Positions 2,520 to 35,636 of a stretch of DNA of 64,000 nucleotides are shown here, piece by piece. A program made the translations under genes and the position numbers. The notes beneath the pieces were generated by a model. It was not told where the DNA came from and did not search any database. It saw only the letters and a program-made list of their open reading frames with translations. Origin of the DNA: Branchiostoma floridae (taxonomy: Eukaryota; Chordata; Leptocardii; Amphioxiformes; Branchiostomatidae); the NCBI RefSeq assembly GCF_000003815.2, contig NC_049990.1:17064532-17128531 (forward strand). Reading direction: 5' to 3'. The first letter of the stretch is position 1. Every line of letters begins with the position of its first letter.

Positions 2520-3335
2520 ATGCCTCGGCACAAGTCTACAGCATCTCCGCCGAGCAAGAAAAAAGAGCAGCCTAAGAAAAGAAAATACAGCTCGACGGGA
2601 TCACAGACAGAAGAAGAAGAAGGAAGGGATATAAAAGAAGTGCTTGAAAAAATTACAGAACAATTGAATGAAATGAAGAACATAAAAAGCCAAGTCAGCC
2701 AAGATGCTATACAAATTGTTAATCTTGCGAAAGCATGTCAACATCTCCAAGATGAAGTTGCTGATTTGAAAAAGGAGTTGAACGTAGTGTCAACAAAACA
2801 AAAAGTGTATGAAGAAATGCAAGAAAAGAATGAAAATGACAAGGCAATAACACAGTATAAACAAGTGCATCTTGAGGCACAATCAAGGAGAGAAAACTTA
2901 CTGTTCTTCAATGTTCATGAGCGTGTGGATGAAAAACCAAATCAGACTGAAAAATTACTATCTCAAATGCTAATCCATAACTGTAAGATTCCAGAAGAGA
3001 CAGTAAAAAAGATGAAGTTTCAGCGCGTTCACCGCCTAGGAAGGGTCAACATTGGAGAGAATGCAAAGCCTCGCCCTATCATTGCCAAATTTGTGTGGTA
3101 TAAAGACAGAGAAAGAGTTAGGTTGTCCGCGAAAAGCTTGAAAGGCACTGCGTTTGGAATCTCTGAAGATTTCCCCCGCCAGATCAGGGAGGTGAGGAAA
3201 AAACTGCTTCCAGTTATGCGGGCGGCGCGCAACTCTCATCCGCCGAAACTGGCAATTCTGAGTGTGGATCAACTTTTCATTGATGGCAAGCTTTATGATG
3301 GCCCCGAGGCAAGGCGCCCCTATATAAGGCGTTAA
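2520..3335 (+). CDS. LINE ORF1 protein (L1-type nucleic-acid-binding chaperone)
   Basis: This is a 271-residue protein from the ATG at 2520. The open frame extends further 5' to 2451 but only from a non-ATG codon. The N-terminus is lysine-rich and basic (SKKKEQPKKRK). It is followed by a long heptad-like region rich in Leu, Ile, Lys and Glu (about residues 40-125) predicted to form a coiled coil. Next comes an RRM-like segment starting RRENLLFFNV and a basic C-terminal domain with FQRVHRLGR and RPIIAKF. This order matches the L1 ORF1p family, which forms trimers and coats the element RNA. The frame has no stop or shift, so this part of the element could still be translated. It precedes the ORF2 start by about 190 bp. 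Confidence 0.85.
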   Translation: MPRHKSTASPPSKKKEQPKKRKYSSTGSQTEEEEGRDIKEVLEKITEQLNEMKNIKSQVSQDAIQIVNLAKACQHLQDEVADLKKELNVVSTKQKVYEEMQEKNENDKAITQYKQVHLEAQSRRENLLFFNVHERVDEKPNQTEKLLSQMLIHNCKIPEETVKKMKFQRVHRLGRVNIGENAKPRPIIAKFVWYKDRERVRLSAKSLKGTAFGISEDFPRQIREVRKKLLPVMRAARNSHPPKLAILSVDQLFIDGKLYDGPEARRPYIRR

Positions 3336-3526
3336 TAACAAGAACTGGATTTAGAACTTTGCTTGTATGTGTTTATGTGAATGCGATGTTAACGATCTAT
3401 GTTTGTTTCCTTTGGACCATGCCACAACAAGGTATACTATGTTCGGGAAGAAAATACTGTAATTATAATTATGATGTCAAATATTTATGTATGTAGCCTA
3501 TTTAGAAATGGGACAAAACATAAGGT

Positions 3527-6500
3527 ATGATGAGCTTTAAAATAACCCTTATGTCCTTAAACGTAAGAGGAATAAATGATAAAGTGAAGAGAATGAAAAT
3601 ATTCAGGTGGCTGCGTAACAAGCAAATAGACATCGCCTTTTTACAAGAGACATTCTCAACAAAAGAAAGCGAAAAACAATGGACCTCAGATTGGGATGGG
3701 GAAATTCTCTTCAGCCACGGAACAGCACATGGCAAAGGTGTGATGATATTATGTAGTCCAAAAGCTGATATTTATTTCAAAGATATATTGACAGACAAGG
3801 ATGGTAGATACATCATTACTAATTGTAGCTTAAATGGTACTGACATAAGTTTGATAAACATATACTCACCTAACAAAGTATCAGAGCAAGTGACTTTTTT
3901 TAGTAAAATACAGGCACTAATACAGCAACAAGCTGACGGGACAATAATTATGGGTGGAGATTGCAATCTTTCCCTCACAGAGTTAGATAAGATAGGGGGG
4001 AGACCTATAGCTTTTAAGGATGGAGCAATTAAGGGACTGAAATCTATACTTAATACCTTTAACTTAAGTGATGTTTGGAGATACAAAAACCCAAACAATA
4101 GACAGTATACATGGCAGAATAAGAACATAAAATGCAGATTGGACTATTGGTTTATACCTTGTAATATGCTACAACTTAGTGAATGTAACATTAAAGTTGC
4201 ACCGGTGCCAGATCATATGGCAGTGTCATTGTCAATTACGTCTAGCAATTATAAAAAAAGGGGACCAGGGTTTTGGAGATTTAACAATTCGCTACTACTG
4301 GACCAAAATTTTGTAAATGAAATGAATAGTCTGTTGAACGACCGTCTACCGAAAGACACACTAGATGATATTGAAGATCCGGGTCTAAGATGGGAAATGA
4401 CCAAAATGGAAATCAGATCTTTCAGTATTAAGTACTCTAAGAAAAAAGCACGTGAACGTAGGAATAAAGAGAGTGAATTAGAAGAAGAACTGAATAACTT
4501 GATAAGTGAAAATGATGAATCAAACGATACCGAGAAACAATCGCTAATCTATGAGTTAAAGGAACAGTTAGATAACTTACAGAACTACAAAGCGAAAGGT
4601 GCAATAATTAGAAGTAGAAGTAACTGGTATGAGTATGGAGAAAAGAGCACAAAGTATTTTTTTAACTTAGAAAAAAGAAGGTACCAGGAGAAGGTCATTT
4701 CTTCATTAACTCTGGAAGATGGAACTATGACTACTGATCCCAATAGGATTCTAATGGAAGAAGCTAGCTATTACAAAAAGCTTTATACTTCAAACAATTG
4801 TAACCCTGAGAAAAATGAATTTTAATTCTTCTTTAAAAACCCAGGAGATAAAGAAGCTAAATGACCANNNNNNNNNNNNNNNNNNNNNNNNNNNNNNNNN
4901 NNNNNNNNNNNNNNNNNNNNNNNNNNNNNNNNNNNNNNNNNNNNNNNNNNNNNNNNNNNNNNNNNNNTGAGGGAGAGATCAAAGAAACCGAACTGAAAAA
5001 AGCCCTACAATCATTAGCTAAAAATAAAAATAAAGCTCCCGGTTGTGACGGCATTACAGTGGAGTTCTATGTAAAATTTTGGGATATGTTAAAGAAATAC
5101 TTTGTAGACGCCATTGACCATGCATATAAAACAAATCTCTTACCTTCTTCTTTAAGAAGGGGAATAATAAGATTACTTCCCAAGAAAGGTTTAGATGGGA
5201 CCACGCTAGATGATTGGCGCCCTATAAGCCTACTCAATGTGGACTACAAAATTCTTAGTAAGGCATTGACATTGCGGCTAGAACCATTACTTCCTCATAT
5301 TATACACGAAGATCAAACAGGTTTCATCAAAGGCCGGTATATTGGGGAAAACATCAGACGTATTTGGGACAGTATAGAAGAGTGTGAAGAAAACAATAAA
5401 CCAGGGTTGCTAATGTTCCTAGACTTTAAAAAAGCATTCGATAGCATTGAAATAGCCTTCATTATTAAAGCACTTAAGACAGTAAATATTGGAGACGGCT
5501 TTATTAGATGGATTACGTTATTATACAATGATATACAAAGTTGCGTTATAAATAATGGCTATACTTCAACATGGTTCACAGTGCAGAGGGGAGTAAGACA
5601 GGGAGACCCTTTGTCCCCTACCTTATTTATCATTGGGATAGAAATGCTAGCTGCAACAGTCAGGGCTGATACGAACATTAGAGGTATTGAAATACACAAT
5701 ACAACACATAAACTATCAATGTACGCTGACGATATAACGTCATTGCTCGCAGATACAATATCTGCACAAAATCTGTTAGACACATTAAATGTATTTAAAA
5801 GATGTAGCGGCCTCGAATTAAACAAAAAAAAAACGGAGGCCCTCTGGGTAGGAAATAATAGTAATAGAGAGGATCATCCGTTACCAGTTAAGTGGCCTGA
5901 GTGCCCCATCAAGGCTCTTGGCGCTCATTTCGGATCCGACCGAGATAAGTGTTACAAGGAAGACTTTGAAAACAACTATACGAAAATGGTTAAGGCTTGT
6001 AATATATGGAAACAGAGAAACCTAACTTTAATAGGACGGATTTTGATTGTAAAGACTATTGGTATCTCAAAGTTAATATACATATGCTCAATCTTGCACG
6101 CTCCTCCCCATTTCTTAAAACAAGTAAATGACTATATTTTCAGATACATATGGCGAGAGAAACCACCAAAAGTAAAAATGAAAACTTTGATTGGCGAGAA
6201 ATGCCAGGGCGGATTGGAAATGATGGATTTTACTTTAATGAATAAAGCCTTAAAGGCGATGTGGGTAAAAAGAATCGTAACAGATACTCGTAAGGAAAAA
6301 GAATACTTGTTTAAAAAATGGGGAGGTTTCCTCATATTCCAGTGTAATTATTCTACAAAGCTGTTAGACACTTCTCACCTGTCAATGTTTTATAAAGATG
6401 TTATAACTGCATGGGAGGAAGTAACTAATTACGAACCAGAGACACACAGACAAATTTGTTCACAGGTAACTATGGAATAATAGATTTATTAAAGTAGAAG

Positions 6501-6595
6501 GATGCTACATTATGTTACAAACTCTGGATTGATGCCGGGCATTATTTATCTGAATGACTTGCTGTATGACGATGGAACATTTATTACCAATGAAG
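3527..6595 (+). pseudogene. LINE ORF2 (endonuclease/reverse transcriptase), frameshifted
   Basis: ORF2 encodes an APE-type endonuclease followed by reverse transcriptase. The endonuclease (3527 to about 4260) shows LNVRGIND, IAFLQETF, GGDCNLSL, RLDYWFIP and the terminal PVPDHMAV motif. The RT (about 5000-5900) shows DDWRPISLLN, QTGFIKGR, FLDFKKAFD, GVRQGDPLSP and the catalytic YADD box. The frame from 3527 stops at 4823-4825, but coding similarity continues one frame over until the gap at 4868, so a 1-nt shift near 4820 is likely. A second shift is near 6465, where the frame ending at 6480 is replaced by one encoding LWNNRFIKVEG, and a third is near 6515. The copy therefore appears dead unless these are assembly errors. 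The C-terminal end lies in the 6596-7099 gap. Confidence 0.85.
4868..4967. other. Assembly gap (100 N)
   Basis: This run of exactly 100 N is probably a gap of unknown true size. It lies within LINE ORF2, between the endonuclease and RT domains. Confidence 0.99.
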
Positions 6596-7099
6596 NNNNN
6601 NNNNNNNNNNNNNNNNNNNNNNNNNNNNNNNNNNNNNNNNNNNNNNNNNNNNNNNNNNNNNNNNNNNNNNNNNNNNNNNNNNNNNNNNNNNNNNNNNNNN
6701 NNNNNNNNNNNNNNNNNNNNNNNNNNNNNNNNNNNNNNNNNNNNNNNNNNNNNNNNNNNNNNNNNNNNNNNNNNNNNNNNNNNNNNNNNNNNNNNNNNNN
6801 NNNNNNNNNNNNNNNNNNNNNNNNNNNNNNNNNNNNNNNNNNNNNNNNNNNNNNNNNNNNNNNNNNNNNNNNNNNNNNNNNNNNNNNNNNNNNNNNNNNN
6901 NNNNNNNNNNNNNNNNNNNNNNNNNNNNNNNNNNNNNNNNNNNNNNNNNNNNNNNNNNNNNNNNNNNNNNNNNNNNNNNNNNNNNNNNNNNNNNNNNNNN
7001 NNNNNNNNNNNNNNNNNNNNNNNNNNNNNNNNNNNNNNNNNNNNNNNNNNNNNNNNNNNNNNNNNNNNNNNNNNNNNNNNNNNNNNNNNNNNNNNNNNN
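6596..7099. other. Assembly gap (504 N)
   Basis: This run of N hides the C-terminal part of LINE ORF2. All ORFs spanning it are artefacts. Confidence 0.99.
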
Positions 7100-7707
7100 A
7101 AGATATATGTTTAAGCAAGAATTCGATAATATATTGTGTAATGGAACCAGCATACCTTGAGTTTTGTATAATGATAGCTAAATATAGCCTATACATCTGC
7201 TTTGTTAATGACATCAAACCCAGTATCCGACATTTCCTTTTACAACTAAAATTCCGAACATACAATATGTAAGATGAAAGGTCCTTCTCTGTCTGTATCC
7301 ACCCAAGTTGTGGCACTTGTCCTTTGTATGTCTTTGTAATGTTTATTGAAATAAAAAAAAATTGAAAAAAAAAAAAAAAAAATAACTGTTTTAGTATTAT
7401 AAGCATTTTCTGAAAGAATGTTTTGTGATTTGAATAAGCGTTAAAAAGGTGCTAATTACAAAATGTAAAGGCCAATGTGTAGATTGTAGTAGCGTATATG
7501 CTAGAGTAAGTCACGTGTATGGATAATAAGTGCATTAACAAATATATATATCATATTCTATTTCTATGTCCAGTTTGCTTCATAATGTATATACAAGTCG
7601 TGCATTCATTGTTACATACTCCAGCAATAGTAGTCTCTGAGAAATCTTCTTAAATGATGAATGTAGAAGCCCATTAAGCTGTAAAGCCGGATGTTGTCCC
7701 GTGCTGA

Positions 7708-10500
7708 TCACACCACTGTCTCCCTCTCAATAAACACTTGGTGTGGGTTCAGTTTTTCCTGTTCACGTATCAGTCTTTCTCTCAACACTTCTGGTTTTGG
7801 CCTTGCTGTTGGGTCCTCGCTCCAACATGACGTCATGATGACGTACAGGTCTGGAGGACACTCCGCAGGCATGTCCAGACGGATCCCCTGCTGTAGGATC
7901 TCCACAAGCTGCTGACAGGTCGGCTGTGGTGTGTTGCCGTACATGGGGTCCGTCCCACCTGTTACAATCTCCCACAGAAGCACACCAAAGGACCACAGGT
8001 CGCTTTCGCACGAGAACTGAAGATGTAGGAGGGACTCGATCGCCATCCATTTCAACGGGAGACGTTGTTCTTGGCCTTGGTGATTGACAGGAATGTATTG
8101 TGCTGTGTTGTACACGTCGCGAGCAAGGCCGAAGTCGCCAAGTTTTGCGACATTCTGTTCAGTGATTAGAACGTTACGTGCGGCCACGTCGCGATGGGAA
8201 ATGCGGAGATCTTTCAGATGACTGAGGGCGTGTGTAATGTCAATTGCAAAATACAGCAAGTGATGTAACTTATTTTTCTTTTGCCTTAAGAAGTTGAGGA
8301 GGTTTCCTTTGCTGGCGTACTCGAGGATCAAGCACTTTGGATTGGATTTGATGTTAAATCCAAGCAACTGGATGATATTAGATTTTCGGGTATTGTATCC
8401 CTTTTCCTCATGTATCACTGTAAGTATCGCTGTCTCTCTGTAGAAGTCCTGGTAACACAGTCTGTCGTTGAAGCGGATCATCTTGGCTGCAACAGTTTGT
8501 TGTCCGGTAGGCAACGCTAGGTTGGCTTGTGTCACCAGACCGAAGGCACCCATCCCTATCATATCTCCCAATGTCAGCTGGCTGCTGTCTATCTGCCATC
8601 GCTCCAGCCATCCTGGGCGTAACTTGTCTGCCAGGTCTTTTTCCATCCTCCTCAACTCACATACAGCATATTCCTCTTCTGGGAGTGGTTTGTGCATTGC
8701 GAAAAGCTTCCATTTTTTCTTACATGCTAGAATGCCAACAAATGCAAGGAACCCCAAAACACAAGAAACGCTTATCAGAATAGCTACATGAAGATCTGAC
8801 TGCTTGATCATGATATCACAGTTCGGTCCCGACCATGGTGGGATACAGGTGCAGCTGCCATCCACGTGATGACAGGTGGCGTTGTTCTTGCAGGTGCAGT
8901 CAGATTGGCAGTTGTGTCCGAATGTGCCCTTCTCGCATGGCTGGCTACAAGTCGTGCCTTTCCAGCCTGCTGTGCAGTTACATGTCCCGTCGCTAGGACT
9001 GCAGTAGGCTCTGTTTTTACAGACGCAACTACTCTCACATCTTAGTCCATACGTTCCCGGTTTACAGGGATCCTCACATCTGTGTCCTCTCCAACCTTCC
9101 AGACAAACACATCCGTCCCGCCGATCACAGTCAGAGCCATGCAGACAGTTGCAGATCTTCTCGCATCTCGACCCATGGTGATTGGGTGGGCAGGAAGTTA
9201 CATTGAGTATGAAGTTCGCTCTCAGGACATTACCTTGTGTTGTGATCGCTTGGCAGATGTACAAGCCATTGTTTTCATTCTGAAGATTCACTATTTCCAC
9301 TTTGTGTCCGTGCTTGACACCTAAAGGCTTGAAGGCCCCCCTCCGTTTCTCAGGCTGAAATAACCATGTCAGCTTTGTAACATTGACATGGTGTTGTTGA
9401 CAATGAAGAGTCACAGATCCGGTAATGTACAGTTCATCTAAATGTCCTTGTGTTGAGTTGATTGACAGTTCTTGTTTTGGTATGTCACAGATGACCCCCT
9501 GCCAACCTGGTTTACACTTGCAGGCTCCATTGAATCTGTGACAATTCGCACCGTTTCTACATGAACACTGATTCTCACATAAGAGGCCATATCTATGTGG
9601 AGGACACGGCAGCAGTCGAACTGTTGCCTCAGCTGATATGGTGCTTTCTTTTAAATAGTCTGCAGAAAGTCCAATGTAATCCGAGAGTCTGAATGGATCG
9701 CATGTAACTTTGATAGAGCCTTCTGAATCTGGTATGAAAGTTGCATGTATCAAAGCCATGAATTCAACATCGGAGTCGGTCATCCAGCTCGGAGAGATAA
9801 GATTCTCAGCTGATGCACTAAAAAGTGATTTTGCTGCCTCATGAATGTTTGTCCTCTCAACTAGTAGGAAATTTAGTGATGCTGATTGTAATTGCTTTGC
9901 ACAGGCAGTAGTTTCCCAATCGCCTCTTATCATTCTGGCAGCTGTTGCGGAAGATGATCTGTCATGCAAAGCCCATACAGCTTTTATTTCACACTTGCTA
10001 TTCCTGCTATTGAAGCGAACATATTCATGTTGACCTTCGTTGTAAAAACGTGTCAGATTGCGATATCTCTTTGATTTCTCGGAAGCAGTTAGCTGTACAA
10101 AGTTTGTGCTTTGAGTGTTTTTTGTCGGTATGTCACAGCTGGTGTTAAACACAGGAGGATAGCCAGGCACGTCCACAACTTGTACCTGAATGGTGACCTG
10201 ACCTTCGTACCTGCCAGACGTAACGTGTAGGATGTACTCGTCTTGCACCCCATAATCCAAAGGATTATTCACAAACAACGTACCATTGCTGACTTTGAAT
10301 CGCCTGTGTGGATCACCTTCCACCGTGTACCCGCCTTCTTTGACCGGCCAAGCCGCCTTCAGGGGTTGGATGTCCTTCGAAATTGGTGTCCCGACAGTGG
10401 CGTTCTCATAAACAGACACACTGAAGATTTCTTGGCTGCAGTAAATTGACACACACAGTATACATGTCCACAGAACTCTGACAACCGTGAGTCCCGACAT
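7708..10500 (-). CDS. Intronless receptor tyrosine kinase, copy A (cadherin-EGF-Ig-EGF x3-kinase)
   Basis: This is a single-exon gene of 930 residues from the ATG at 10498-10500. The open frame runs ten codons further 5' but only from a TTG; AAAATGT fits a usable start, and a hydrophobic signal peptide (residues 1-22) follows directly. The ectodomain has a cadherin-like repeat (about 25-120: YENATVGTPI, NPLDYGVQDEYIL, VVDVPGYPPVF), a Cys-poor region of unknown fold (120-295), an EGF-like module (about 298-340), an Ig domain (about 345-435) and three EGF-like modules (437-562). A membrane helix (about 570-593) follows. The kinase (about 643-915) has GMGAFGLV, AAK (Lys673), HRDVAARN, DFGLARD with Tyr797 and Tyr802 following, and LPLKWMA. 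All catalytic residues are present, so it should be an active receptor. The ligand is unknown. The EGF/Ig part recalls Tie receptors and the cadherin part recalls RET or Cad96Ca, but no orthology is claimed. Confidence 0.93.
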   Translation of the reverse strand: MSGLTVVRVLWTCILCVSIYCSQEIFSVSVYENATVGTPISKDIQPLKAAWPVKEGGYTVEGDPHRRFKVSNGTLFVNNPLDYGVQDEYILHVTSGRYEGQVTIQVQVVDVPGYPPVFNTSCDIPTKNTQSTNFVQLTASEKSKRYRNLTRFYNEGQHEYVRFNSRNSKCEIKAVWALHDRSSSATAARMIRGDWETTACAKQLQSASLNFLLVERTNIHEAAKSLFSASAENLISPSWMTDSDVEFMALIHATFIPDSEGSIKVTCDPFRLSDYIGLSADYLKESTISAEATVRLLPCPPHRYGLLCENQCSCRNGANCHRFNGACKCKPGWQGVICDIPKQELSINSTQGHLDELYITGSVTLHCQQHHVNVTKLTWLFQPEKRRGAFKPLGVKHGHKVEIVNLQNENNGLYICQAITTQGNVLRANFILNVTSCPPNHHGSRCEKICNCLHGSDCDRRDGCVCLEGWRGHRCEDPCKPGTYGLRCESSCVCKNRAYCSPSDGTCNCTAGWKGTTCSQPCEKGTFGHNCQSDCTCKNNATCHHVDGSCTCIPPWSGPNCDIMIKQSDLHVAILISVSCVLGFLAFVGILACKKKWKLFAMHKPLPEEEYAVCELRRMEKDLADKLRPGWLERWQIDSSQLTLGDMIGMGAFGLVTQANLALPTGQQTVAAKMIRFNDRLCYQDFYRETAILTVIHEEKGYNTRKSNIIQLLGFNIKSNPKCLILEYASKGNLLNFLRQKKNKLHHLLYFAIDITHALSHLKDLRISHRDVAARNVLITEQNVAKLGDFGLARDVYNTAQYIPVNHQGQEQRLPLKWMAIESLLHLQFSCESDLWSFGVLLWEIVTGGTDPMYGNTPQPTCQQLVEILQQGIRLDMPAECPPDLYVIMTSCWSEDPTARPKPEVLRERLIREQEKLNPHQVFIERETVV

Positions 10501-12222
10501 TTTCGAGCGAGGACTCTCTTCGAGATACAATCAAAGACTGTGAGGCAAGACGTTTTGAAGCCCCTGTGTGAACAGTAATTAATGCCAAAGGTTCCTCAAT
10601 TTGATGTTCCTGAATCTTAATAATTATCTTTCTTCAAAGGGCTGGTAAGGAAAAGGGGAAACCCCTGGACTGCTTTGGACGGACGAGGCATTGCCTCGGG
10701 CTCTTGAAGAAGAAAGAAACGCTATAGTGTGCCTAATCTGCGTGTTTACTCAGTGCACCATTACATTTTCTGTCCAGCAATATTAATATGTAATCAGAAA
10801 TACATTTACTCTCAAATGTCAAGAAAATTTCAGCAAATATTTTACGAAGCCACTACTGTGGGAAAGGTAGTCTTTAGTCACTAGAATACACGTACACATG
10901 TATGTAGGATTGGACAGAAACATATTTTTTTCCGAGGGTCTGATCTGAACACAGTGACCTCGGTGACGTCATGCCTTGTGGCATTAAAACCAGAGCAGCA
11001 AGTTTCAAACACTTTCAGGAAGTGTAAAAAGCAGAACCTGTGACACCCTGATCACGTGTAACTTTGGGAACGACAAGTAACTGTCTTTGTCTGGCTCAAC
11101 CCAAGCGTAATCTACTTCCATGATACTTTCCAATCAGAGGTTGGTGGGGAAATCGATATCGTGACCTTTTCCTTTCTTCCTTTTTTTTATTGATCGGCCG
11201 ATCGAAAAAAAAGTGGGAATGCCGATCGAAAAAAAAACACACACACACACTGATGAATGGAAAGAGTCACGATTTCCCAACCAACCCCTGCTTGGTGAGT
11301 ACTCCCAGGATTGTACCATAAGATTTATTATGCATACGTAAAGAGTTGCCTTTTGGGGAAGTGGGCACTCAGTCGATCTTGGAATATTGTTCCTGAATTT
11401 ACTTCCCCTTTCTTTGTCTCAACGTCCTATCTCAGCGTATTGATTACATCCATGAAAACTACAAGTTATATTTTAGGCAGTGTTGTGTTTTTGTCTGTCG
11501 GTCAACACAACTACCGAGAGCTCCTCATGTCATTATTGATATGCAAAAATGCACTAAATATAACCATCTCATGTGGTATATGTTAAAATTTAAGTCCAAA
11601 AAAAATGCTAACAAGAGGAAATTGCTGACCCTTTTAACACATATGACACTCGAGGCACTCAGATAACAAAGTGACATACAAATGCATTTTCTTTGTAACA
11701 TTTGTACTTGTATCTAAATAGCCAGTAAAACTGCCCTTCAGTGAAGTAAAGTATGATGCTACTGGTAGTTTATTCAGCTATACACATGTAAGGAATAGAT
11801 ATGTACAAATGACTTTCCTAGCAACAAAACTCCATCCACCTTTCAAATTAAAAGGTTGTTGACTTAAGTTGGTATAAGTGTATTTTTGAAGGTTGTTGAT
11901 TTATCAGATGATCATGACAAGGGTCATTTTTTCTGTAACAAATTATATTCTGGTGACTGCACAATGTTTGCAGTACTTGTACATGATCTTTCACAACTTT
12001 GAATTGCTTGAGGTTGAGCTTGTGTTTCTTATTCAAAATGTAGAAGAGATTTAACATGTCAAAGGATTATGTCTGTTATTTTAATATATCAGCTTCCTGT
12101 CTGTGAATTTCACCACGTGTACATAAAACATAACACAGATTTGAACTGTACAGCATTTAGACATTCTGTATCTGAATAGGACGCAAAGGTGACAAGAGCT
12201 ACCATGGAAGACCATCCCTGCA
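10501..12222. other. RTK copy A upstream flank, noncoding
   Basis: There is no gene. The flank is strongly conserved with copy B (20446-22192), including a CRE (10964-10971), an E-box CACGTG (about 11054), a short (CA)n run (about 11238-11250), and a degenerate SINE tail (about 11712-11750, resembling 32325-32360). It ends at the orphan DnaJ last exon. Promoter elements probably lie in the first 700 bp, but no TATA box was identified with confidence. Confidence 0.6.
10964..10971. promoter_or_regulatory. Consensus CRE (TGACGTCA) upstream of RTK copy A
   Basis: A perfect palindromic CREB/ATF site lies 464 bp upstream of the start codon. The same octamer is at exactly the same distance in copy B. 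Recent duplication explains the conservation equally well, so function is only inferred. Confidence 0.45.
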
Positions 12223-12654
12223 TCACCGTAGCGGGCTCTTGGTACCGCCTCCCTCTAACAGATCCTTTGCCTCATTTATCTTTGCAGCAAGGTAAGGCGA
12301 CCCACCTGACATTCAGAAAAAAAAGATAGACAATGGTTAGTCTTGTCATGTTTGTATCATAAAGATATTTTCTTGTCAGTATTTAGTAGTTTTGCAAGTT
12401 TCACCTTGTTGACCATTGAACTGCAATGTTTTCTTGAAATGTTGATACACTGGAATGTTTTTTCACAGATGTTTCAATTGAAGACAGTGCAAAAGGCAGG
12501 TACAGTCAGAACTGCCAAAGATGACAACTCAAGGGACCAATAAACTTTGGTCTTTATGGATTGGTGAATTTTGGTGGTCACTATAGACAGAATTCTTCAG
12601 GCTTGTTCTAGTGGAAAATTATCTAAGGCATAAGGGATCACCAATATGTGGCCA

Positions 12655-12812
12655 CACTGGCCAGGTGGACCTTATGTACAGATGGTAACTTGTACAGGTT
12701 TGACTCAATATCCAATAGGCCAGGTGGTCCTTATGTTGAGGTGGTCACTTGTACATGTTTAATTGTAACAATTTGTATATCAGTGTCCAGGTGGTCCATA
12801 TGTAGAGGCATA
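12655..12812. repeat. Reduced, degenerate 57-bp minisatellite in copy A
   Basis: About three diverged units of CAGGTGG(T/C)C-TTATGT-GAGGTGG-CACTTGTACA-GTTTGA lie here, and one more lies after the SINE-like insertion (13218-13275). Copy B has eight regular units at 22584-23039, so the array expanded or contracted after duplication. Confidence 0.7.
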
Positions 12813-13204
12813 ACTCAGGTGTAAATGAGTATCTAGCTACGGCTAGTGACCTTGGCGGGGCTTTGTGGCCGAGACAGGCTTAGGGGCATGTTCGGGCATG
12901 ATGCACCCGCCATGACACACGAGTCGCGCGATCGGGGGTATGAGGAACTCCTTACATCCTTGGTCGGAAGTCCTCCTAGGAGACGGATACTCCAAATAGC
13001 AAAGCTGCATCTGCTGGAGCCGTCTCACACGTGTCATACAGTTCTGTCCCTGTGAGACTTAGTGCTCCAGTAGACGAGAGAGTGGAGAAGGAATTGCACA
13101 CCCCTCCTTCACGATAAAAAGTCATGTGCAGGTCAGGCAAAAACAGGTAAATGCCTGTCTGCCTGTTCATCTGTCGAATCGACAGGAGAACCATAAAGGG
13201 AACC
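12813..13204. mobile_element. SINE-like 392-bp insertion in copy A only
   Basis: The segment is flanked by a perfect 13-bp direct repeat ATGTAGAGGCATA (12800-12812 and 13205-13217), and copy B lacks it. The left end carries the SINE tail motif CTCAGGTGTAAATGAGTA-CTAGCT shared with the SINEs at 185-385 and 44985-45255. The remainder is GC-rich without a recognisable tRNA promoter or ORF. It is a post-duplication insertion. The exact class is uncertain, probably a truncated or composite SINE. Confidence 0.7.
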
Positions 13205-14456
13205 ATGTAGAGGCATAGTACTAGTACAAGTCTGATTGTACATCAATGGCCAGGTGGCAACCTTTACATGTTTGGCTGTACATAAACAAGATGATACATC
13301 CCACATAGCCTTACCTCTATCTGGATGGTTGAGCAGCATAATTCTCCTGTGTGCCTCCCTCATCTTCTTCGTGTTAGCTGATGGACTGGAAATAAAATCA
13401 AAGCCCTTTCACTCATCTGTGTTTTATCTCATCTTTTTAGCATTGTTAGTTTGTCATTTTGGTCATTTAACATTTTCAACAGTGACTTACCAAGTCTAGA
13501 CCAACATGACTTACTCTCCACCCAAAGAGCTTTATCTACCACTAAAAAATCATGTCATTGACCACAGCATATCCAGAACATGAGATATCCAAACTGGAAG
13601 TTCTACTGCAATACTGTAATAAAACGCTAGACGGACTTAAGTCTAACCATTCTGAGGTCTCATCAAGACCTATTCACATACTAACGTAACTAAGCACCAA
13701 CTTCAAAGACAATTCAACCTGACATTCTCAAGCTATATTATTCACAAACACACAACACACAGATCAAAACATAACCTTCTTGGCAAAGGCAAGAAGAAAA
13801 CCCATGTAGTTGTAGTTCAACACTAAGTGATACTGTAACAGGGATATCTGTCCTGTTTTTGTAGGTAATTTTTGGAAACATACCCGACTTTTGACTTTCT
13901 ATCGTTCTTTGTTATGTTTCTTAACTACATAAATACATCGCAACATGCTATACAGGAATCGCATACTACTGAATACCTTTATATTTTAGGCATACGTTCG
14001 AAAATACACTCGTTAAGAATGAAGTTGTTAATAATTATAAAACATTTTACGAAAGCACTACACTTTGCCTGTCATGCCGTTCAGACAAGTTTTGAATCGC
14101 TGTGCATGCTGGGATAGCCGACCCAGTTGGGCTGTCATCCCCGCATTTCCCCGGTAAAAACTTAATCGAATACCCTTTCTTGAAGATATAGAAACATTGA
14201 GCAGTGTTATTATCTAGAGAGATATGAGACACAGGGACGTGTTAGGGATGAATGATATGTGTCTATTGGTATCACGGAACGGAACAAAACCGAACGATAA
14301 AAAACAAACATGTAACCATTGATGTAACCAAAACCAAACGTAAAATTGTGTGTCCAGTCACGTCTCTAATGTCAACCAAGGAAGATCAACCTGAAAAAGA
14401 TAACAGGAAAACACTTATAGCGTTTAACATGCGACCAAGATAGGATAATAATCAAG

Positions 14457-14540
14457 TGTAACGAAATGACCTTGCCACGTGTAACGAAATTACTTCGTGA
14501 TGTAACGAATCGACTGTAACGAAAAGGCGATGTAACGAAA
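14457..14540. repeat. Five irregularly spaced TGTAACGAA motifs
   Basis: TGTAACGAA starts at 14457, 14480, 14501, 14515 and 14531 (spacings 23, 21, 14 and 16). The intervals differ, so it is not a simple microsatellite. Function unknown. Confidence 0.6.
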
Positions 14541-14780
14541 CGACCGGTTACCGGGTTAACTATGGGACAACGGACATGTGCATGTATATGTCACAGGGGA
14601 GATTGGAATCCATGGGGAATCGGAATCCCCCTAGGGGAGACTAGACTTCCAATTACCCCTAGGGCAGATTGGAATTCCAATCTCTCCTACGGGAATTCCA
14701 ATCCCCCTGGGAGAGATTGGAATTCTTATGGAGACCGAATAAAGAAACTCTTTTTACACAACCAACGATTTATTCTCACC

Positions 14781-14813
14781 GACGTTTCGGTGACTGTCTG
14801 TCACCTTCTTCAG
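14781..14813 (-). ncRNA. Hammerhead-ribozyme-like motif 1
   Basis: The minus strand reads CTGAAGA, then a stem-loop (GGTGAC, loop AGACA, GTCACC), then GAAAC and GTC. This fits the core CUGANGA / GAAA / NUH with a perfect 6-bp stem II. One extra A precedes stem II, and the only possible stem III is the short ACGU, as in the minimal hammerheads known from Penelope-like elements. Activity is uncertain. Confidence 0.5.
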
Positions 14814-15272
14814 GGCAATTCTGACTGGTTCACGTTGTACTGCAGGATAGGTGTCTTATGGAGACCATTATGAGTTTAACTTAATGTTCTCTACCGTTTT
14901 TTTTCCAGTTAGCTATGTTGCATTATTTTTTTCGGGCATATCCTTGCTTTTGACCTTGTTTTTTCTGCCAGCTGAAATTGACTAGATAGAATATCACTTG
15001 TCAAATAATTCTGTCTATTTTTCAAAACAATTTCATCTAATCTGAAATTTGCGGTAAAATCAAAGATTGTCTTGTATTACTGAATGTTTGATAATGTAAT
15101 GTTTAACGAGGTATAGTACATGATAAGATAATATTGTACACTATAGAGAAGTATTGTTAACCTTAAATTGTCAGAAAAATGCCAGATATGAGGCATAAGA
15201 TATTATGATTTATTCTCAGAAATGATTATAAATCCCTGTTGCATTGTTTTAAACTATGAAGCCACTGCTGGG

Positions 15273-15513
15273 TGTCACGAGGTGGCATCGTGATCACTCT
15301 GTGATCACCCCTGGTGTGGGGAGTGTCACCCGAGTAATTGGGAGCAGATGTACAGGGGTTTGAGAAGGGACACGTATGAGGGTAGGGGATTCCAGCTAGA
15401 GACGCCGACAGGGTAGGACGTGCCCAGATTGTCCTGAATAAAGGTTATCATATCCGCAACATCATGCCTCTGTCCTGATCCTTGACTTGACTCACTACCA
15501 TGCCACCGTGACA
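15273..15513. mobile_element. Possible solo LTR (about 241 bp)
   Basis: The segment starts TGTCACGAGGTGGC and ends GCCACCGTGACA, giving the 5'-TG...CA-3' ends and short inverted termini expected of an LTR. An AATAAA lies inside near 15439. No internal retroelement coding sequence flanks it, and no clear 5-bp target duplication is visible. The call is therefore tentative. Confidence 0.4.
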
Positions 15514-17658
15514 GTAGATTCAAAGATTGTCCTGGTAGAATTCCAATCTCTCCTAGGAGAATTCCGGATTCTCCTAGGAGAGTTGGAATTCCATTAGAAC
15601 TCTAGAAGAATTCCAATCTCTCGGGATCCTCCTAGATTCCAATCTCCTCTGTGACATATACATGAAGTGGACTTGACTATTTCAATGTGGCGTATGTGCC
15701 TGGGGATGGTAGCCTGATCAGATTTGACTGTAGTACAGTACTAAACTTCTTTTTGACTGTTAAAACCAATAATGTTACTGATCTGCATCGCATTTGTATA
15801 TCGTCAAAACGAACGATTTTCATTCTAATATTTTTCCAAATTGTTTTCCTCAACTTCAGCACAAAACTTTACTATCTTTAGGATTTCACCTAATACATGT
15901 AGTATCTTTTTGTAAAACTCAATTCAGACTTTTCCCCCATCACATCTTATCATTGCTGAAGATGGTGTTATCTTGGTAGGTCTCTGCATTCACAAAGTAC
16001 CATCTGTTTCTTCTAGAATTTGCCCAAATGCCTTGTTAATGCAATTGTATGGATTCCCTTCTCTGGTAACACCAAAACTGATGCAAAGGCTGCAAGAGAG
16101 AGTTTAAAGCACCTGATTGTTCAATAATCAGTTCGAGAAGTTCCTAAGAACAGAGTCTGTGCCAAGGACCCGGTGTCAAAAAGGGAAAACCCCTAGACGC
16201 CCTATGTATGTGATTGAGATCTTTGTTAATAGAGAAATGCCAGAGATTTCAACAGTGTTTTAATCAATATATTTTGTTGTACTGAATGATTTTATGTGAG
16301 ATAGGCTCGAGTTGTAAGATAGGCTCGAATTGTCTCACCTGATATCTGAACACAATAGAATTGATAATGTCTATCCTAGTAGTGTGAGAACTAGAGTAGA
16401 AGGTTTCAGGAACTGTGAAAAAGGGACGTTGTATGTCCTCCTGTTCCCTAGAAACTTAACTCGCGGACCGTCTTTGTTTGGTTCAAGCCAAGCGTTATCT
16501 ACCAACAAGATAGCCTGCCTTGAAATTTAGATAGCTTTTAACCCTGTTACTTTACTGTCCTCTGTTCTAAGATAAACAAGGAAGGAACAGCCAAAACGTG
16601 TGTGCTACATGTTTCAGTAATTCTGGTTTCCTCTCTCTAAACTGCACAATTCTAGTTATGAATAGTGTAAAGAATTTCATTGGACGAACGAGAGTTCCAC
16701 GACCTCATACCTTTACTTTTACCAAATGGTTTAGTCTTTTTGAGTACTTATAAATCTTTCCACTTGATCATGCAAATGATGTCCTCATTTTCATAATTTG
16801 TCTCGTTGAAGCATCCTCTCTATGCAATAGGCATACGTCCAAAGCATACAGGTCTTATTGTAGCAGAGAAGGCCATTTTAGTGTTTCCTCCTGCGTTACT
16901 TAAATATCAAACTTATTTGTATGATTAACGTCAAATAATGAGCATATTCACTAAGTTCCATATGCTGTAAGTATGAAGTTCCAATCATTGACCACTGTGG
17001 AATTACAATATTTTCTTATTTATCATGCAGACGAGGTCTTTATTTGCATTATTAATACCTATCGACATTTCTCTCTCAGCTACATATGTCACGAGTTTGA
17101 AATTCCTATCATGGAATACAGCGAATTAATAAACTTCCCTCATTAATTATGCAATTAGCTGTTAATTTCCACATTAAGTATCTTTTTATGTAAGTCATCA
17201 CCTTGGCTATCTACATACCAAAAATCATGACAATCTGTCAACACGTGCTGGAGTAATTCCCATCTAACAAAGATGAGACATTTTCTTTGTTGATTTATGC
17301 ATGAAAGACATTAGTTAATTAGAACACTCTATGGCTTACTTCTAATTACTGTTTAGTATTGTAAGCATTTTCTGAAAGAATGTTTTGTGACTTGAATAAG
17401 CAATAAAAAGGTGCTAATTACAAAATTTAAAGGCAAACGTGTAGAGTGTAGTAGCGTATATGCTAGAGTAAGCCACGTGTATGCATAATAAATGGCATTA
17501 ACAAATTATATTCTATTTCTATGTCCAGTTTGCTTCATCATGTATATACTAGTCGTGCATTCATTGTTAGATACTCTAGAAATAGTAGTCTCTGAGAAAT
17601 GTTCTTAAATGATGAATGTAGCTGTAAAGCTGTAAAGCCGGATGTTGTCCCGTGCTGA

Positions 17659-20445
17659 TCACACCACTGTCTCCCTCTCAATAAACACTTGGTGTGGGTT
17701 CAGTTTTTGCTGTTCTCGAATCAGTCTTTCTCTTAACACTTCTGGTTTTGGCCTTGCTGTTGGGTCCTCGCTCCAACATGACGTCATGATGACGTACAGG
17801 TCTGGAGGACACTCCGCAGGCATGTCCAGACGGATCCCTTGCTGTAGGATCTCCACAAGCTGCTGACAGGTCGGCTGTGGTGTGTTGCTGTACATGGGGT
17901 CCGTCCCACCTGTTACAATCTCCCACAGAAGCACACCAAAGGACCACAGGTCGCTCTCGCACGAGAACTGAAGATGTAGGAGGGACTCGATCGCCATCCA
18001 TTTCAACGGGAGACGTTGTTCTTGGCCTTGGTGATTGACAGGAATGTATTGTGCTGTGTTGTACACGTCGCGAGCAAGGCCAAAGTCGCCAAGTTTTGCG
18101 ACATTCTGTTCAGTGATTAGAACGTTACGTGCGGCCACGTCGCGATGGGAAATGCGGAGACCTTTCAGGTGACCGAGGGCTTGTGTAATGTCAATTGCAA
18201 AATACAGCAAGTTATGTAACTTATTTTTCTTTTGCCTTAAGAAGTTGAGGAGGTTTCCTTTGCTGGCGTATTCAAGGACCAAGCACTTTGGATTAGATTT
18301 GATGTTAAATCCAAGCAATTGGATGATGTTAGAGATTCGGGGATTGTATCCCTTTTCCTCATGTATCACTGTAAGTATCGCTGTCTCTCTGTAGAAGTCC
18401 TGGTAACACAGTTTGTCGTTGAAGCGGATCATCTTGGCTGCAACAGTTTGTTGTCCGGTAGGCAAGGCTAGGTTGGCTTGTGTCACCAGACCGAAGGCAC
18501 CCATCCCTATCATATCTCCCAATGTCAACCGACTGCTGTCTATCTGCCATCGCTCAGTCCAACCTGGGCGTAACTTGTCTGCCAGGTCTTCTTCCATCCT
18601 CCTCAACTCACATACAACATATTCCTCTTCTGGGAGTGGTTTGTGCAAAGCAAAAGGCTTCCATTTTTTCTTACATGCTACAATACCAACAAAAGCAAGA
18701 AGCCCAAGAACACAAGAGACGCCAATAAGAATAGCTACCCGAAGATTTAACTGCTTGATTATGATATCACAGTTCGGTCCCGACCATGGTGGGATACAGG
18801 TGCAGCTGCCATCCACGTGATGACAGGTGGCGTTGTTCTTGCAGATGCAGTCAGATTGGCAGTTGTGTCCGAATGTGCCCTTCTCGCATGGCTGGCTACA
18901 AGTCGTGCCTTTCCAACCTGCTGTGCAGTTACATGTCCCGTCGCTAGGACTGCAGTAGGCTCTGTTTTTACAGACGCAACTACTCTCACATCTTAGTCCA
19001 TACGTTCCCGGTTTACAGGGATCCTCACATCTGTGTCCTCTCCAACCTTCCAGACAAACACAGCCGTCCCGCCGATCACAGTCAGAGCCATGCAGACAGT
19101 TGCAGATCTTCTCGCATCTCGACCCATGGTGATTGGGTGGGCAGGAAGTTACATTGAGTATGAAGTTCGCTCTCAGGACATTACCTTGTGTTGTGATCGC
19201 TTGGCAGATGTACAAGCCATTGTTTTCATTCTGAAGATTCACTATTTCCACTTTGTGTCCGTGCTTGACACCTAAAGGCTTGAAGGCCCCCCTCCGTTTC
19301 TCAGGCTGAAATAACCATGTCAGCTTTGTAACATTGACATGGTGTTGTTGACAATGAAGAGTCACAGATCCGGTAATGTACAGTTCATCTAAATGTCCTT
19401 GTGTTGAGCCGATTGACAGTTCTTGTTTCGGTATGTCACAGATGACCCCTTGCCAACCTGGTTTACACTTGCAGGCTCCATTGAATCTGTGACAATTCGC
19501 ACCGTTTCTACATGCACACTGAGTCTCACATAAGAGGCCATATCTATACGGAGGACACGGCAGCAGCCGAGCTGTTGCCTCAGCTGATAAGGTGCTTTCT
19601 TTTAAATAGTCTGCAGAAAGTCCAATGTAATCCGAGAGTCTGAATGGATCGCATGTAAGTTTGATAGAGCCTTCTGAGTCTGGTATGAAAGTTGCATGTA
19701 TCAAACCCATGAATTCAACATCGGAGTCGGTCATCCAGCTCGGAGAGATAAGATTCTCAGCTGATGCACCAAAAAGTGATTTTGCTGCCTCATGAATATT
19801 TGGCCTCTCAACTAGTAGGAAATTTAGTGATGCTGATTTTAATTGCTTTGCACATGCCGTATTTTCCCAATTGCCTCTTATCATTCTGGCAGCTGTTGTG
19901 GAGGATGATCTGTCATGCAAAGCCCATACAGCTTTTATTTCACACTTGCTATTCCTGCCATCGAAACGAACATATTCATGACCTTCGTTGTAAAAACGTG
20001 TGAGATTGCGATATCTTTTTGATTTTTCGGAAGCAGTTAGCTGTACAAAGTTTGTGCTTTGGGTGTTTCTAGTCGGTATGTCACAACTGGTGTTAAAGAC
20101 AGGATAGCCAGGCACGTCCACAACTTGTACCCGAATGGTGACCCGACCCTCGTACTGGCCAGACGTAAGGTGTAGGATGTACTCGTCTTGCACCCCATAA
20201 TCCAAAGGGTTATTCACAAACAACGTACCATTGCTGACTTGGAATCGCCTGTGTGGATCGCCTTCCACCGTGTACCCGCCTTCTTTGACCGGCCGATCCA
20301 CCTTCAGGGGTTGGATGTCCTTCAAAATTGGTGTCCCAATAGTAGCGTTCTCATAAACAGACACACTGAAGATTTCTTGGCTGCAGCAAATTGACAGACA
20401 CAGTATACATGTCCACAGAACTCTGACAACCGTGAGTCCCGACAT
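17659..20445 (-). CDS. Intronless receptor tyrosine kinase, copy B
   Basis: This is a 928-residue single-exon paralogue of the gene at 7708-10500, with the start ATG at 20443-20445. Domain order is the same: signal peptide, cadherin-like repeat, unassigned region, EGF, Ig, three EGF modules, membrane helix and tyrosine kinase. It is two residues shorter (one Pro lost in the GYPVF motif and one Gln lost from NEGHEY). Kinase motifs GMGAFGLV, AAK, HRDVAARN, DFGLARD and LPLKWMA are intact. Differences from copy A cluster in the first 300 residues and around the membrane and juxtamembrane part (for example IIKQLNLRVAILIGV). The Ig and EGF2-4 part is almost unchanged, suggesting gene conversion. 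Its upstream flank is followed directly by the 3' end of the complete DnaJ gene on the same strand. Confidence 0.93.
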   Translation of the reverse strand: MSGLTVVRVLWTCILCLSICCSQEIFSVSVYENATIGTPILKDIQPLKVDRPVKEGGYTVEGDPHRRFQVSNGTLFVNNPLDYGVQDEYILHLTSGQYEGRVTIRVQVVDVPGYPVFNTSCDIPTRNTQSTNFVQLTASEKSKRYRNLTRFYNEGHEYVRFDGRNSKCEIKAVWALHDRSSSTTAARMIRGNWENTACAKQLKSASLNFLLVERPNIHEAAKSLFGASAENLISPSWMTDSDVEFMGLIHATFIPDSEGSIKLTCDPFRLSDYIGLSADYLKESTLSAEATARLLPCPPYRYGLLCETQCACRNGANCHRFNGACKCKPGWQGVICDIPKQELSIGSTQGHLDELYITGSVTLHCQQHHVNVTKLTWLFQPEKRRGAFKPLGVKHGHKVEIVNLQNENNGLYICQAITTQGNVLRANFILNVTSCPPNHHGSRCEKICNCLHGSDCDRRDGCVCLEGWRGHRCEDPCKPGTYGLRCESSCVCKNRAYCSPSDGTCNCTAGWKGTTCSQPCEKGTFGHNCQSDCICKNNATCHHVDGSCTCIPPWSGPNCDIIIKQLNLRVAILIGVSCVLGLLAFVGIVACKKKWKPFALHKPLPEEEYVVCELRRMEEDLADKLRPGWTERWQIDSSRLTLGDMIGMGAFGLVTQANLALPTGQQTVAAKMIRFNDKLCYQDFYRETAILTVIHEEKGYNPRISNIIQLLGFNIKSNPKCLVLEYASKGNLLNFLRQKKNKLHNLLYFAIDITQALGHLKGLRISHRDVAARNVLITEQNVAKLGDFGLARDVYNTAQYIPVNHQGQEQRLPLKWMAIESLLHLQFSCESDLWSFGVLLWEIVTGGTDPMYSNTPQPTCQQLVEILQQGIRLDMPAECPPDLYVIMTSCWSEDPTARPKPEVLRERLIREQQKLNPHQVFIERETVV

Positions 20446-22192
20446 TTTCAAGCGAGAACTCTCTTCGAGATACAATCAAAGACTGTGAGGCAAGACGTTT
20501 TGAAGCCCCTGTGCGAACAGTAATTAATGCCAAAGGTTCCTCAATTTGATGTTCCTGAATCTTAATAATTATCTTTCTTCAAAGGGCTGGTAAGGAAAAG
20601 GGGAAACCCCTGGACTGCTTTGGACGGACGAGGCATTGCCTCGGGCTCTTGAAGAAGAAAGAAACGCTATAGTGTGTTTAATCTGCGTGTTTACTCAGTG
20701 CACTATTACATTTTCTATCCTGCAATATTAATATGTAATCAGAAATACATTTACTCTCAAATGTCAAGAAAATTTCAGCAAATATTTTACGAAGCCACAA
20801 CTGTGGGAAAGGTAGTCTTTAGTCACTAGAATACACGTACACATGTATGTAGGATTGGACAGAAACATATTTTTTTCCGAGGGTCTGATCTGAACACAGT
20901 GACCTCGGTGACGTCATGCCTTGTGGCATTAAAACCAGAGCAGCAAGTTTCAAACACTTTCAGGAAGTGTAAAAAGCAGAACCTGTGACACCCTGATCAC
21001 GTGTAACTTTGGGGACGACAAGTGACTGTCTTTGTCTGGCTCAACCCAAGCGTAATCTACTCCCATGGTACTTTCCAATCAGAGGTTGGTGGGGAAATCG
21101 ATATCGTGACATTTTTCTTTCTTCCTTTTTTTTATTGATCGGCCGATCGAAAAAAAAGTGGGAATGCCGATCGAAAAAACACACACACACACTGATGAAT
21201 GGAAAGAGTCACGATTTTCCCACCAACCTCTGCTTGGAGAGTACTCCCAGGATTGTACCATAAGATATGCATACGTAAAGCGTTGCCATTTGAGGAAGTG
21301 GGCACTCAGTTGATCTTGAAATATTGTTCCTGAATTTACTTCCCCTTTCTTTGTCTCAAAGTCCTATCTCAGCGTATTGATTACATCCATGAAAACTACA
21401 GGTTATATTTTAGACAGCGTTGTGTTTCTGTCTGTCGGTCAACACTGTTTATGGACTACCGAGAGCTTGATATGCAAAAATGCACTAAATATAACCATCT
21501 CATGTGGTATATGTTAAAATTTAAGTCCAAATAAAATGCTAACAAGAGGACATTGCTGACCTTTTTAATACATATGACACTCGAGGCATTCAGAGAACAA
21601 AGTGACATACAAATGCAATTTCTTTGTAACATTTGTACTTGTATCTAAATAGCCAGTAAAACTGCCCTTCAGTGAAGCAAAGTATGATGCTACTGGTAGT
21701 TGATTCAGCTATACACATATTAGGAATATGTACAAATGGCTTTCCTAGCAACAAAACTCAATCCACTTTTCAAATTAAAAGGTTGTTGACTTAAGTTGGT
21801 ATAAGTGTATTTTTGAAGGTAGTTGATTTATCAGATGATCATGACAAGGGTAATTTTTTCTGTAACAAATCATATTCTGTTGACTGCACAATGCTTGTAG
21901 TACTCGTACATGATCTTTCACAACTTTGAATTGCTTGAGGTTGAGCTTGTGTTTCTCATTCAAAATGTAGAAGTATTTGAGATTTAACATGTCAAAGGAT
22001 TATATGTTATTTTGATATATCAGCTTCCTGTCTGTGAATTTCACCACATGTACATAAAACATAACACAGATTTGAACTGTACAGCATTTAGACATTCTGT
22101 ATCTGAATGGGATGCAAAGGTGACAACAACTACCATGGAAGACCATCCCTGCATTCTACATACTATTAGGCTGCATGTTTACTCTTGTAGCA
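20446..22192. other. RTK copy B upstream flank, noncoding
   Basis: There is no gene. It is nearly identical to copy A for the first 700 bp (CRE at 20909-20916, (CA)n near 21180). It is bounded on the right by the last exon of the DnaJ gene. Confidence 0.6.
20909..20916. promoter_or_regulatory. Consensus CRE (TGACGTCA) upstream of RTK copy B
   Basis: The octamer is 464 bp upstream of the start codon, the same distance as in copy A. Confidence 0.45.
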
Positions 22193-25100
22193 TCACCGCA
22201 GCGGGCTCTTGGTACCACCTCCTTCTAACAGATCTTTTGCCTCATTTATCTTTGCAGCAAGGTAAGGTGATCCACCTGACATTCAGAAGAAAAATATAAC
22301 ACAGTTATTATTTTTTACTCTTGTCATGTTTGTATCATAAAGATATTTTCTTGTCAGTATTTACTAGTTTTCACGTTTAACCTTGTGGACCATTAAACTG
22401 CAATGTTTTCTTGAAATGTTGATACACTGGAATGTTTTTTCACAGATGTACAAAAGCCAGCATTGTTTCAATTGAAGACAGTGCAAAAGGCAGATACAGT
22501 CAGAACTGCCAAGGAAGACAACTCAAGGGACCAGTAAACTTCTATGGATTGGTGGTCACTATAGACAGTGGCCAGTGTGGTCACACTGGCCTGGATGGTA
22601 TTATGTACAGGTGGTCACTTGTACAGGTTTGACTGAATATCAATGGCCAGGTGGCCTTTTTGTAGAGGTGACCACTTGTACAGGTTTGACTGTGTATCAA
22701 TGGTCAGGTGGCCTTTATGTAGAGGTGGCCACTTGTACAGGTTTGACTGTGTATCAATGGTCAGGTGGCCTTTATGTAGAGGTGGCCACTTGTACAGGTT
22801 TGACTGTGTATCAATGGTCAGGTGGCCTTTATGTAGAGGTGGCCACTTGTACAGGTTTGACTGTGTATCAATGGTCAGGTGGCCTTTATGTAGAGGTGGC
22901 CACTTGTACAGGTTTGACTGTGTATCAATGGTCAGGTGGCCTTTTTGTAGAGGTGACCACTTGTACAGATTTGACTGTGTATCAATGGTCAGGTGGCCTT
23001 TATGTAGAGGTGGCCACTTGTACAGGTTTGGGTGAATGTACAAACAAGATGATACATCCCACATAGCCTTACCTCTGTCTGGATGGTTGAGCAGCATAAT
23101 TCTCCTGTGTGCCTCCCGCATCTTCTTCGTATTAGCTGATGGACTGGAAATAGAATAAAAGCCCTTTCACTCATCTGTAATCTGTCTTATCTTTTTGAGC
23201 ATTGTTAGTTTGTTTTTTTGGTCATTTAACATTTTCAACAGTGACTTAAAAATGTTCTAGGGGACCTAGACCAACATGTCTTACTATCCATCTAAAGAGC
23301 TATATCTTCCACTCAAAAATCATGACCACAGCATGTCCAGAACATGAGATATTGAAACTGGAAGTTCTACTGCAATACCTTAACAAAACACAAGGGGGAC
23401 CAAAGGCTAACCATTCTGAGGTCTCATCAAGACCTATTCATATACTAAGTACCAACTTCAAAGACAATTCATGCAGGCATTCTCAAGCTTTCTTATTCGC
23501 ACAAACTCACACACACACACACCAAAACATAACCTTCTTTGCAAAGACTGTAAAGACCATGCAGCTGTAATGCAAAACTAAGTGATACAGAAAGATCTGT
23601 CGTTAGATTTTTGTTGGTAATTTTTGGAAACATACCTGACTTTTGACTCTTTCTATCATTCTTTCCTATATTTCTTGACTAATAAATTTGTTTTAATAAT
23701 AATTGTATCAATTATGTTGTATCAGCTATGTTACCTACCTGACTCCTAATACAAGTGCTGCTTCTCTCTTTGTCATCTTTGGTTCAAAACCACCTCTGTA
23801 GTAGTGACTGTTCAACAGCTGGGATGGAGACAAACTTGGTAAATATTTGGAATTTTCACATTCCTTTTTCACTGTTTTCTAAAGCAAGTCAAGCGTTACA
23901 CAGCACAGTATAGACAACAACAAAAATATTCATCTTCTTAGAATATTAAAAATTATATCGAACAGTCTTCTTCGTTTCACAACCTCTTTTTATTCTTCTG
24001 CAGACGTTTCGGTGACTGTCTGTCACCTTCATCAGTGCAAAATGAAATATACTAACGTTACTCGCTGCGATATGACCTGTACAGTGCAAATCGAACTAAA
24101 CCTATTGTGACGTAATTACTTGACATGGAATGTTCTCGAACGTGATACGTTAATCATCCTTGCCACTTTGTGACGTAGTGGCAAGGATGCGGTCCCAAAC
24201 ATGGCTAAGTTTATACGTCACAAAGTGGCAAGGATGATTAACGTATCACATTCCAGAACATTCCATGTCAAGTAATTACGTCACAATAGGTTTAGTTCGA
24301 TTTGCACTGTACAGGTCATATCGCATATCGAGTAACGTTAGTATATTTCATTTTGCACTGATGAAGGTGACAGACAGTCACCGAAACGTCTGCAGAAGAA
24401 TAAAAAGAGGTTGTGAAACGAAGAAGACTGTTCGATTGATCTACCAACCTGATGAAACTATTTACGGATTAAAAATTATAGTCATGAAATGTGTGCGGTC
24501 TAACAGTAACAGAGCCGCATAGAACTTGTTAGAAGTGCGGTGTGAAGACTAGCCGTCAGCTGCCTACCCATGTCAGGGAACCCAGAAGCAGTATTATCAA
24601 ACAATGGATCGTGAGTGAGTGAAATGTGATGCTAAAACATAACCGTTACTCACCGGTACTGCCTTTTCAAACTTCTTGGCACTCTCCATAAGAGGCTTGG
24701 ACCACCGGATGGCTGCTCGGGCTGTAGGTATGAAAATGTACTGATGAATGACAGCAGCAAGAGACGACTTAAATGTGTTTCACAGAATGCTGCATTATAC
24801 CACATACTACCATAATTGATTGTTCAACTTCACATATTCTGACAAATTATCCAAAGCAAGCGTATTTCATCCAGTAGTATTCGGATCACACCAAGGCATT
24901 TGCATAATGTAAATGCATTTAATTTTGCAGGGATTTAATTTCGCGATAGCGGGAAAAGGGACTTTCGCAGTAGTTTTAAGTTCGCGGTAGCACCATGCAT
25001 ATTCACAGTCCCTTACTGCCATGGAAAAATGTTTGCGGTAGTTTTGAGTTCGTGGTGAAGCAGCCACCGCGAAAACCGCGAATATCAAACCACCATTTCT

Positions 25101-26374: not shown

Positions 26375-35636
<9,262 letters not shown>

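Follow-up and report, generated by a model that had tools for sequence, protein, structure and literature searches.

Two single-exon receptor tyrosine kinase genes with a hybrid outer part in a duplicated block of the Branchiostoma floridae genome

Gene content of the window

The stretch of Branchiostoma floridae DNA analysed here, a window of 64 kb, contains two uninterrupted reading frames for receptor tyrosine kinases (RTKs), both on the minus strand and both where a previous sequence-only reading had located them: gene A at 7708-10500 (930 amino acids plus stop) and gene B at 17659-20445 (928 amino acids plus stop). Each encodes extracellular domains, one transmembrane helix (as read from the sequence) and a kinase with catalytic motifs, as is characteristic of receptor tyrosine kinases, and the length of the frames together with their domain content rules out that they are chance open reading frames. 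Upstream of each ATG, ten in-frame sense codons are followed by a stop, with more stops beyond, so that there is no contiguous extension of the coding region. Considered together with the hydrophobic leader at the protein N-terminus (judged by eye), these upstream stops indicate that each gene reads as a complete receptor in a single exon. The term intronless refers here to the coding region, and an intron in the 5' UTR of these genes may exist.

The two proteins are identical at 875 of 930 aligned residues, and the coding sequences at 2675 of 2784 aligned bases. With a dN of 0.027 and a dS of 0.089 (ratio 0.31), amino-acid changes per site are fewer than silent changes, which indicates that the copies have been under constraint at the protein level. 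Both genes lie within one gap-free stretch of about 40 kb (7100-47208).

It had been proposed that every other gene in the window has introns. This agrees with the four separate pieces in which a DNAJC19-like gene was found, and with a plus-strand EARS2-like glutamyl-tRNA synthetase gene, the first exon of which was located at 26975-27253 (tRNA-synt_1c, 7.2e-22), but not with a single-exon ORF of 357 amino acids and two LINE ORFs, which are among the five N-free ATG-to-stop ORFs of at least 200 amino acids present in the window. The second exon of the EARS2-like gene was located by eye within 28957-29175. The 357-aa ORF, at 48525-49595, gives weak matches to Ulp1 protease and PHD finger, and beside it lies a 360-base tandem array (47314-48674) that, by eye, seems to repeat its PHD end. 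Another tandem array, at 58148-60397, is made of about 15.5 copies of a 145-base unit with 92% matches. Rfam produced nothing in the 64-kb window at gathering thresholds, and the viral contigs scanned contained no relative.

Domain composition of the outer part

The domain order previously proposed, namely cadherin-like, unknown, EGF, Ig and three further EGF domains, is broadly right. In a search of Pfam the EGF-type repeats are clear and the Ig and cadherin domains weak. In gene A, to which the following minus-strand coordinates refer, the cadherin-like domain spans residues 24-118 approximately (10147-10431), and its Pfam Cadherin match is below the cut-off in both genes (E 0.066 in A and 0.084 in B). 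In PDB, ten sequences are listed as matching residues 24-298 at E<=10, all of them members of the cadherin family and all weak (E 0.064-0.69). The RET/Cad96Ca-like nature that had been suggested for this first domain is plausible in the light of these cadherin-family matches, weak as they are and with Pfam below its cut-off. The PDB matches stop near residue 122, and residues 123-298 approximately are matchless in Pfam (E<=1) and in PDB (E<=10); the domain delimited there, at residues 119-298 approximately (9607-10146), has no Pfam match at E<=1 and is left without family assignment. Structure predictions of gene A, computed from an alignment made of gene B only, reached a mean pLDDT of 35.7 for residues 24-298 and of 36.1 for residues 296-570, values too poor for fold comparison.

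Then follow a first EGF domain at residues 299-339 (9484-9606; EGF_laminin/hEGF), which is a second stretch matching TIE2 EGF3, an Ig-like domain at residues 340-434 (9199-9483; V-set with an E of 6e-4, which does not reach the curated cut-off), and a triplet of Tie-type EGF domains, EGF2-4, at residues 435-562 (8815-9198). Six PDB sequences match residues 296-570 at E<=0.001, the top three being TIE2/TEK, the best of which scores 79.5 bits while no sequence other than Tie exceeds 55.9. The triplet aligns with TIE2 EGF by EGF. The score of this alignment (260) was reached by none of 1000 shuffles preserving Cys and Gly, the maximum being 238. Thus, of the EGF-Ig part that had been described as Tie-like, the EGF triplet is indeed so, whereas the Ig domain is no more similar to TIE2 Ig2 than shuffled sequences are. 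Its identification with Tie Ig2 was tried and dropped, the score against the end of TIE2 Ig2 being 22 and the best of 500 shuffles 39. No FN3 family match was found in the RTK proteins at Pfam E<=1. The outer part is followed by the transmembrane helix at residues 570-592 (8725-8793), recognised as a hydrophobic run followed by CKKKWK.

Placement of the kinase domain

The tyrosine kinase domain of gene A occupies residues 643-909 (7774-8574, minus strand; Pfam PK_Tyr_Ser-Thr, 5.4e-66), and its glycine loop, VAAK, HRDVAARN and DFG motifs are intact, with K673 as the predicted catalytic lysine. The best 60 of 1017 PDB sequences matched by the kinase include FGFR3, FGFR4, CSF1R, KIT, FGFR2 and RET, and are headed by an EGFR chain for which two kinase stretches were summed. 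In a tree of 16 kinases, made of the window pair and 14 references that are all human (invertebrate kinases being absent) and ten of which were entered by hand and incompletely checked, the window pair groups with TIE, RET, FGFR1, KDR, KIT and PDGFRB with a support of 90.1/90. The same group is recovered at 93.5/91 after removal of EGFR, and the placement in the supergroup reaches 98.5/96 when both EGFR and TRKA are removed and only gap-free columns are used. TIE appears as the sister of the window pair in one of the three trees, the last mentioned, with a weak 21/53. The branch leading to the window kinases measures 1.5 substitutions per site, so that long-branch effects are possible.

A constraint test with full search of 12 placements kept TIE (p-AU 0.65), RET (0.42), FGFR (0.18) and PDGFR/VEGFR (0.079), as well as TRKA (0.30), EGFR (0.19) and INSR (0.063), and rejected MET (0.044), AXL (0.044), SRC (0.020) and EPHA2 (0.010), the last being the sole placement also rejected by the SH test. 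An earlier fast search of eight of those 12 constraints had rejected FGFR (0.044), PDGFR/VEGFR (0.029) and MET; its rejection of FGFR and PDGFR/VEGFR is withdrawn, since the fuller search keeps both, and TIE can therefore not be told apart from the remaining families of this group. Among the 14 references, identity to the gene A kinase is highest for TIE2 (39.3%, 103/262), with FGFR1 next (38.7%); RET is 37.2% and KDR 37% identical. The kinase thus probably belongs, short of proof, to the TIE/RET/FGFR/VEGFR/PDGFR supergroup. The lineage-specific RTK expansion that had been suggested for these genes fits this placement, which does not amount to proof of it.

It could be argued from the TIE-type EGF triplet, and from the fact that sister placements with TIE and with RET are both kept by the AU test, that the pair is simply orthologous to TIE or RET of vertebrates. 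We consider this very improbable, since Pfam gives no FN3 match and just a single weak one each for Ig and cadherin, and since the kinase identities to TIE2 (39%) and RET (37%) are hardly above those to FGFR1 (39%) and KDR (37%).

The duplicated block

The RTK genes are part of a larger duplicated block, whose left copy, interrupted by a LINE, extends over 388-13934 and whose right copy extends over 15962-23687, as delimited by self-BLAST. The paired segments are 388-1775 with 15962-17354, 7381-12808 with 17344-22782, and 13252-13934 with 23008-23687, and the copies are separated by a spacer of about 2 kb that has no counterpart in the window. A repeat pair at 231-357 and 45103-45228, the first member of which is situated at the block's left edge, resembles by eye a tRNA-derived SINE. 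The right copy adjoins the DNAJC19-like gene (22208-25339, minus strand), whose four pieces were located by tblastn at 25274-25339 (weak, E 0.006), 23741-23827, 23071-23145 and 22208-22276; the left copy holds only its last two pieces (12238-13387, minus strand; tblastn, 13313-13387 and 12238-12306). Across the matched stretches, the protein sequence of this fragment is identical to that of the full copy. A 57-base minisatellite of 7.5 copies is found in the right copy at 22601-23030, within an intron of DNAJC19, and its counterpart in the left copy (12655-12808) is short and diverged.

The LINE of the left copy (1779-7382, plus strand) contains endonuclease and reverse-transcriptase ORFs, terminates in a poly-A, and includes assembly gaps. 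It is flanked on both sides by the 12-base repeat TAACTGTTTTAG, at about 1767-1778 and 7383-7394, the ends of the element having been set by eye on the flanking sequence. The element starts on one gap-free piece and finishes on another, and the agreement of its flanking repeats speaks for the order of the scaffold at this point. The element is missing from the right copy, which indicates that it was inserted after the copies had parted.

In highly polymorphic animals, two haplotypes can show up as an apparent tandem gene pair, and this caution applies to the present locus. The substitution divergence between the copies is 3.9% in the coding sequence (109/2787), 4.7% upstream (99/2106) and 4.15% in the 3' flank (57/1374), so that the copies are about 4% apart over most of the block. 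This resembles the SNP rate of 4.39% reported between alleles of the diploid Chinese lancelet genome (PMC4284660). The LINE could be allelic as well, given that recent TE insertions make up 65-77% of large polymorphic indels according to the same paper (PMC4284660). The RTK pair might accordingly consist of two alleles of one single-exon locus assembled side by side. Against this possibility, which we regard as rather unlikely, both genes are on a single gap-free stretch of 40 kb, the left copy has only the last two DNAJC19 pieces, about 2 kb without counterpart in the window separate the copies, and divergence is above that of the rest of the block in the DNAJC19 part (13.8%, 91/661) and in a short 3' segment (7.0%, 22/314), a count that omits the minisatellite stretch separating the last two of the upstream segments. 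A real tandem pair of RTK genes is the likely arrangement.

Differences between the two coding sequences are unevenly distributed: 600 bases covering the Ig-EGF section have only three of them, and none of 2000 permutations gave so low a value. Such a pattern is what gene conversion would give, or else recombination between alleles. The low-difference tract, at about 8810-9457 (bases 1044-1691 of the gene A coding sequence), looks as if it had been homogenised recently.

Absence of introns

If the two genes are paralogues, the intronless state that both have in common must be older than the duplication. The ancient retrocopy that had been proposed for this earlier step is possible, but the marks of a retrocopy, a poly-A run and a flanking direct repeat, were not found. 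Around copy B, whose coding region is intron-free as that of a retrogene would be, no run of at least eight A is present in the 1.7 kb downstream, and no 12-mer is common to the upstream and downstream flanks as a target-site duplication would be. If the retrocopy is old, the absence of such footprints is to be expected; what argues for retroposition is the lack of introns. Stepwise or recombinational loss of the introns in place, with no messenger being retroposed, would equally leave no poly-A run and no shared flanking 12-mer around copy B. It appears nonetheless the less probable route, a minority possibility in our judgement, because the disappearance of all introns over 2.8 kb would most simply involve an mRNA intermediate, and because footprints fade over time and the kinase stands on a long branch. 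Retroposition would therefore be the simplest account of the loss of all introns.

A proposed receptor and its history

Beyond the complete ORFs, the domain matches, the intact catalytic motifs and the constraint between the copies, which are observed, we favour by a modest degree of belief the view that each gene encodes a single-pass RTK of the TIE/RET/FGFR/VEGFR/PDGFR supergroup carrying a Tie-like EGF triplet, with the following function and origin. The outer part would bind a ligand, bringing receptors together, upon which the kinase would trans-phosphorylate, with Y797 and Y802 as candidate activation-loop tyrosines, and adaptors would relay the signal. The C-terminal ETVV is a sequence that we take to resemble a class I PDZ ligand. 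Regarding origin, the spliced messenger of an intron-bearing member of the group would have been retroposed, or its introns would all have been lost otherwise; a block comprising the RTK gene and, from the adjacent DNAJC19-like gene, the 3' exons would later have undergone tandem duplication; a tract within the RTK pair would have been homogenised; and a LINE would have entered the left copy.

A more far-reaching version, which we put forward tentatively and hold to be rather unlikely, is that a complete and working RTK, retroposed as a whole messenger, persisted and gave rise to a new, lineage-specific type of receptor with a cadherin-like/Tie hybrid outer part, which spread by tandem block duplication and whose Ig-EGF section has stayed similar through gene conversion. 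Provided that both copies are real, the locus offers a tidy case of the origin of a new receptor, intron-free, hybrid and duplicated with a piece of a housekeeping gene, as well as a system for asking whether a retroposed RTK gained its own expression and ligand.

Comparison with known receptors

The RTK pair is ordinary in kind and somewhat unusual in its hybrid outer part and complete absence of introns. Its architecture is not described in the titles and abstract openings among the matches listed for amphioxus RTK expansion, intronless RTKs, EXTK and amphioxus Tie/angiopoietin.

TIE receptors have three Ig domains and three FN3 repeats, a set that the window RTKs, with one weak Ig domain and no FN3 (E<=1), do not have. 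Like TIE1 and TIE2 (TEK), the angiopoietin receptors, they have, following an Ig domain, three EGF repeats that agree in type and spacing; unlike them, they have no introns and add one EGF domain as well as the cadherin-like and unassigned domains at the N-terminus. The kinase also differs, with DFGLARDVY in place of the DFGLSRG of TIE. RET carries four cadherin-like domains in addition to a cysteine-rich one. The window RTKs are similar to it in the weak cadherin-like first domain and in a kinase 37.2% identical, but they have a single weak cadherin match, and the EGF, Ig and triple EGF domains are foreign to RET. Drosophila Cad96Ca/Stitcher is presumably an apt comparison as well, made with regard to the weak cadherin-like first domain.

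In amphioxus, TIE, FGFR, PDGFR and RET kinases have reportedly expanded by duplication and exon shuffling, the resulting receptors being said to have been named EXTK by D'Aniello et al. in 2008. EXTK and their relatives share introns in the kinase domain, which are absent from the window RTKs, where the kinase domain is encoded without interruption within a single ORF. On the other hand, the window RTKs are like the EXTK supergroup in their shuffled ectodomain and local duplication, and probably in kinase grouping, and fast exon shuffling and domain recombination are features of lancelet genomes according to Huang et al. 2014 (PMC4284660).
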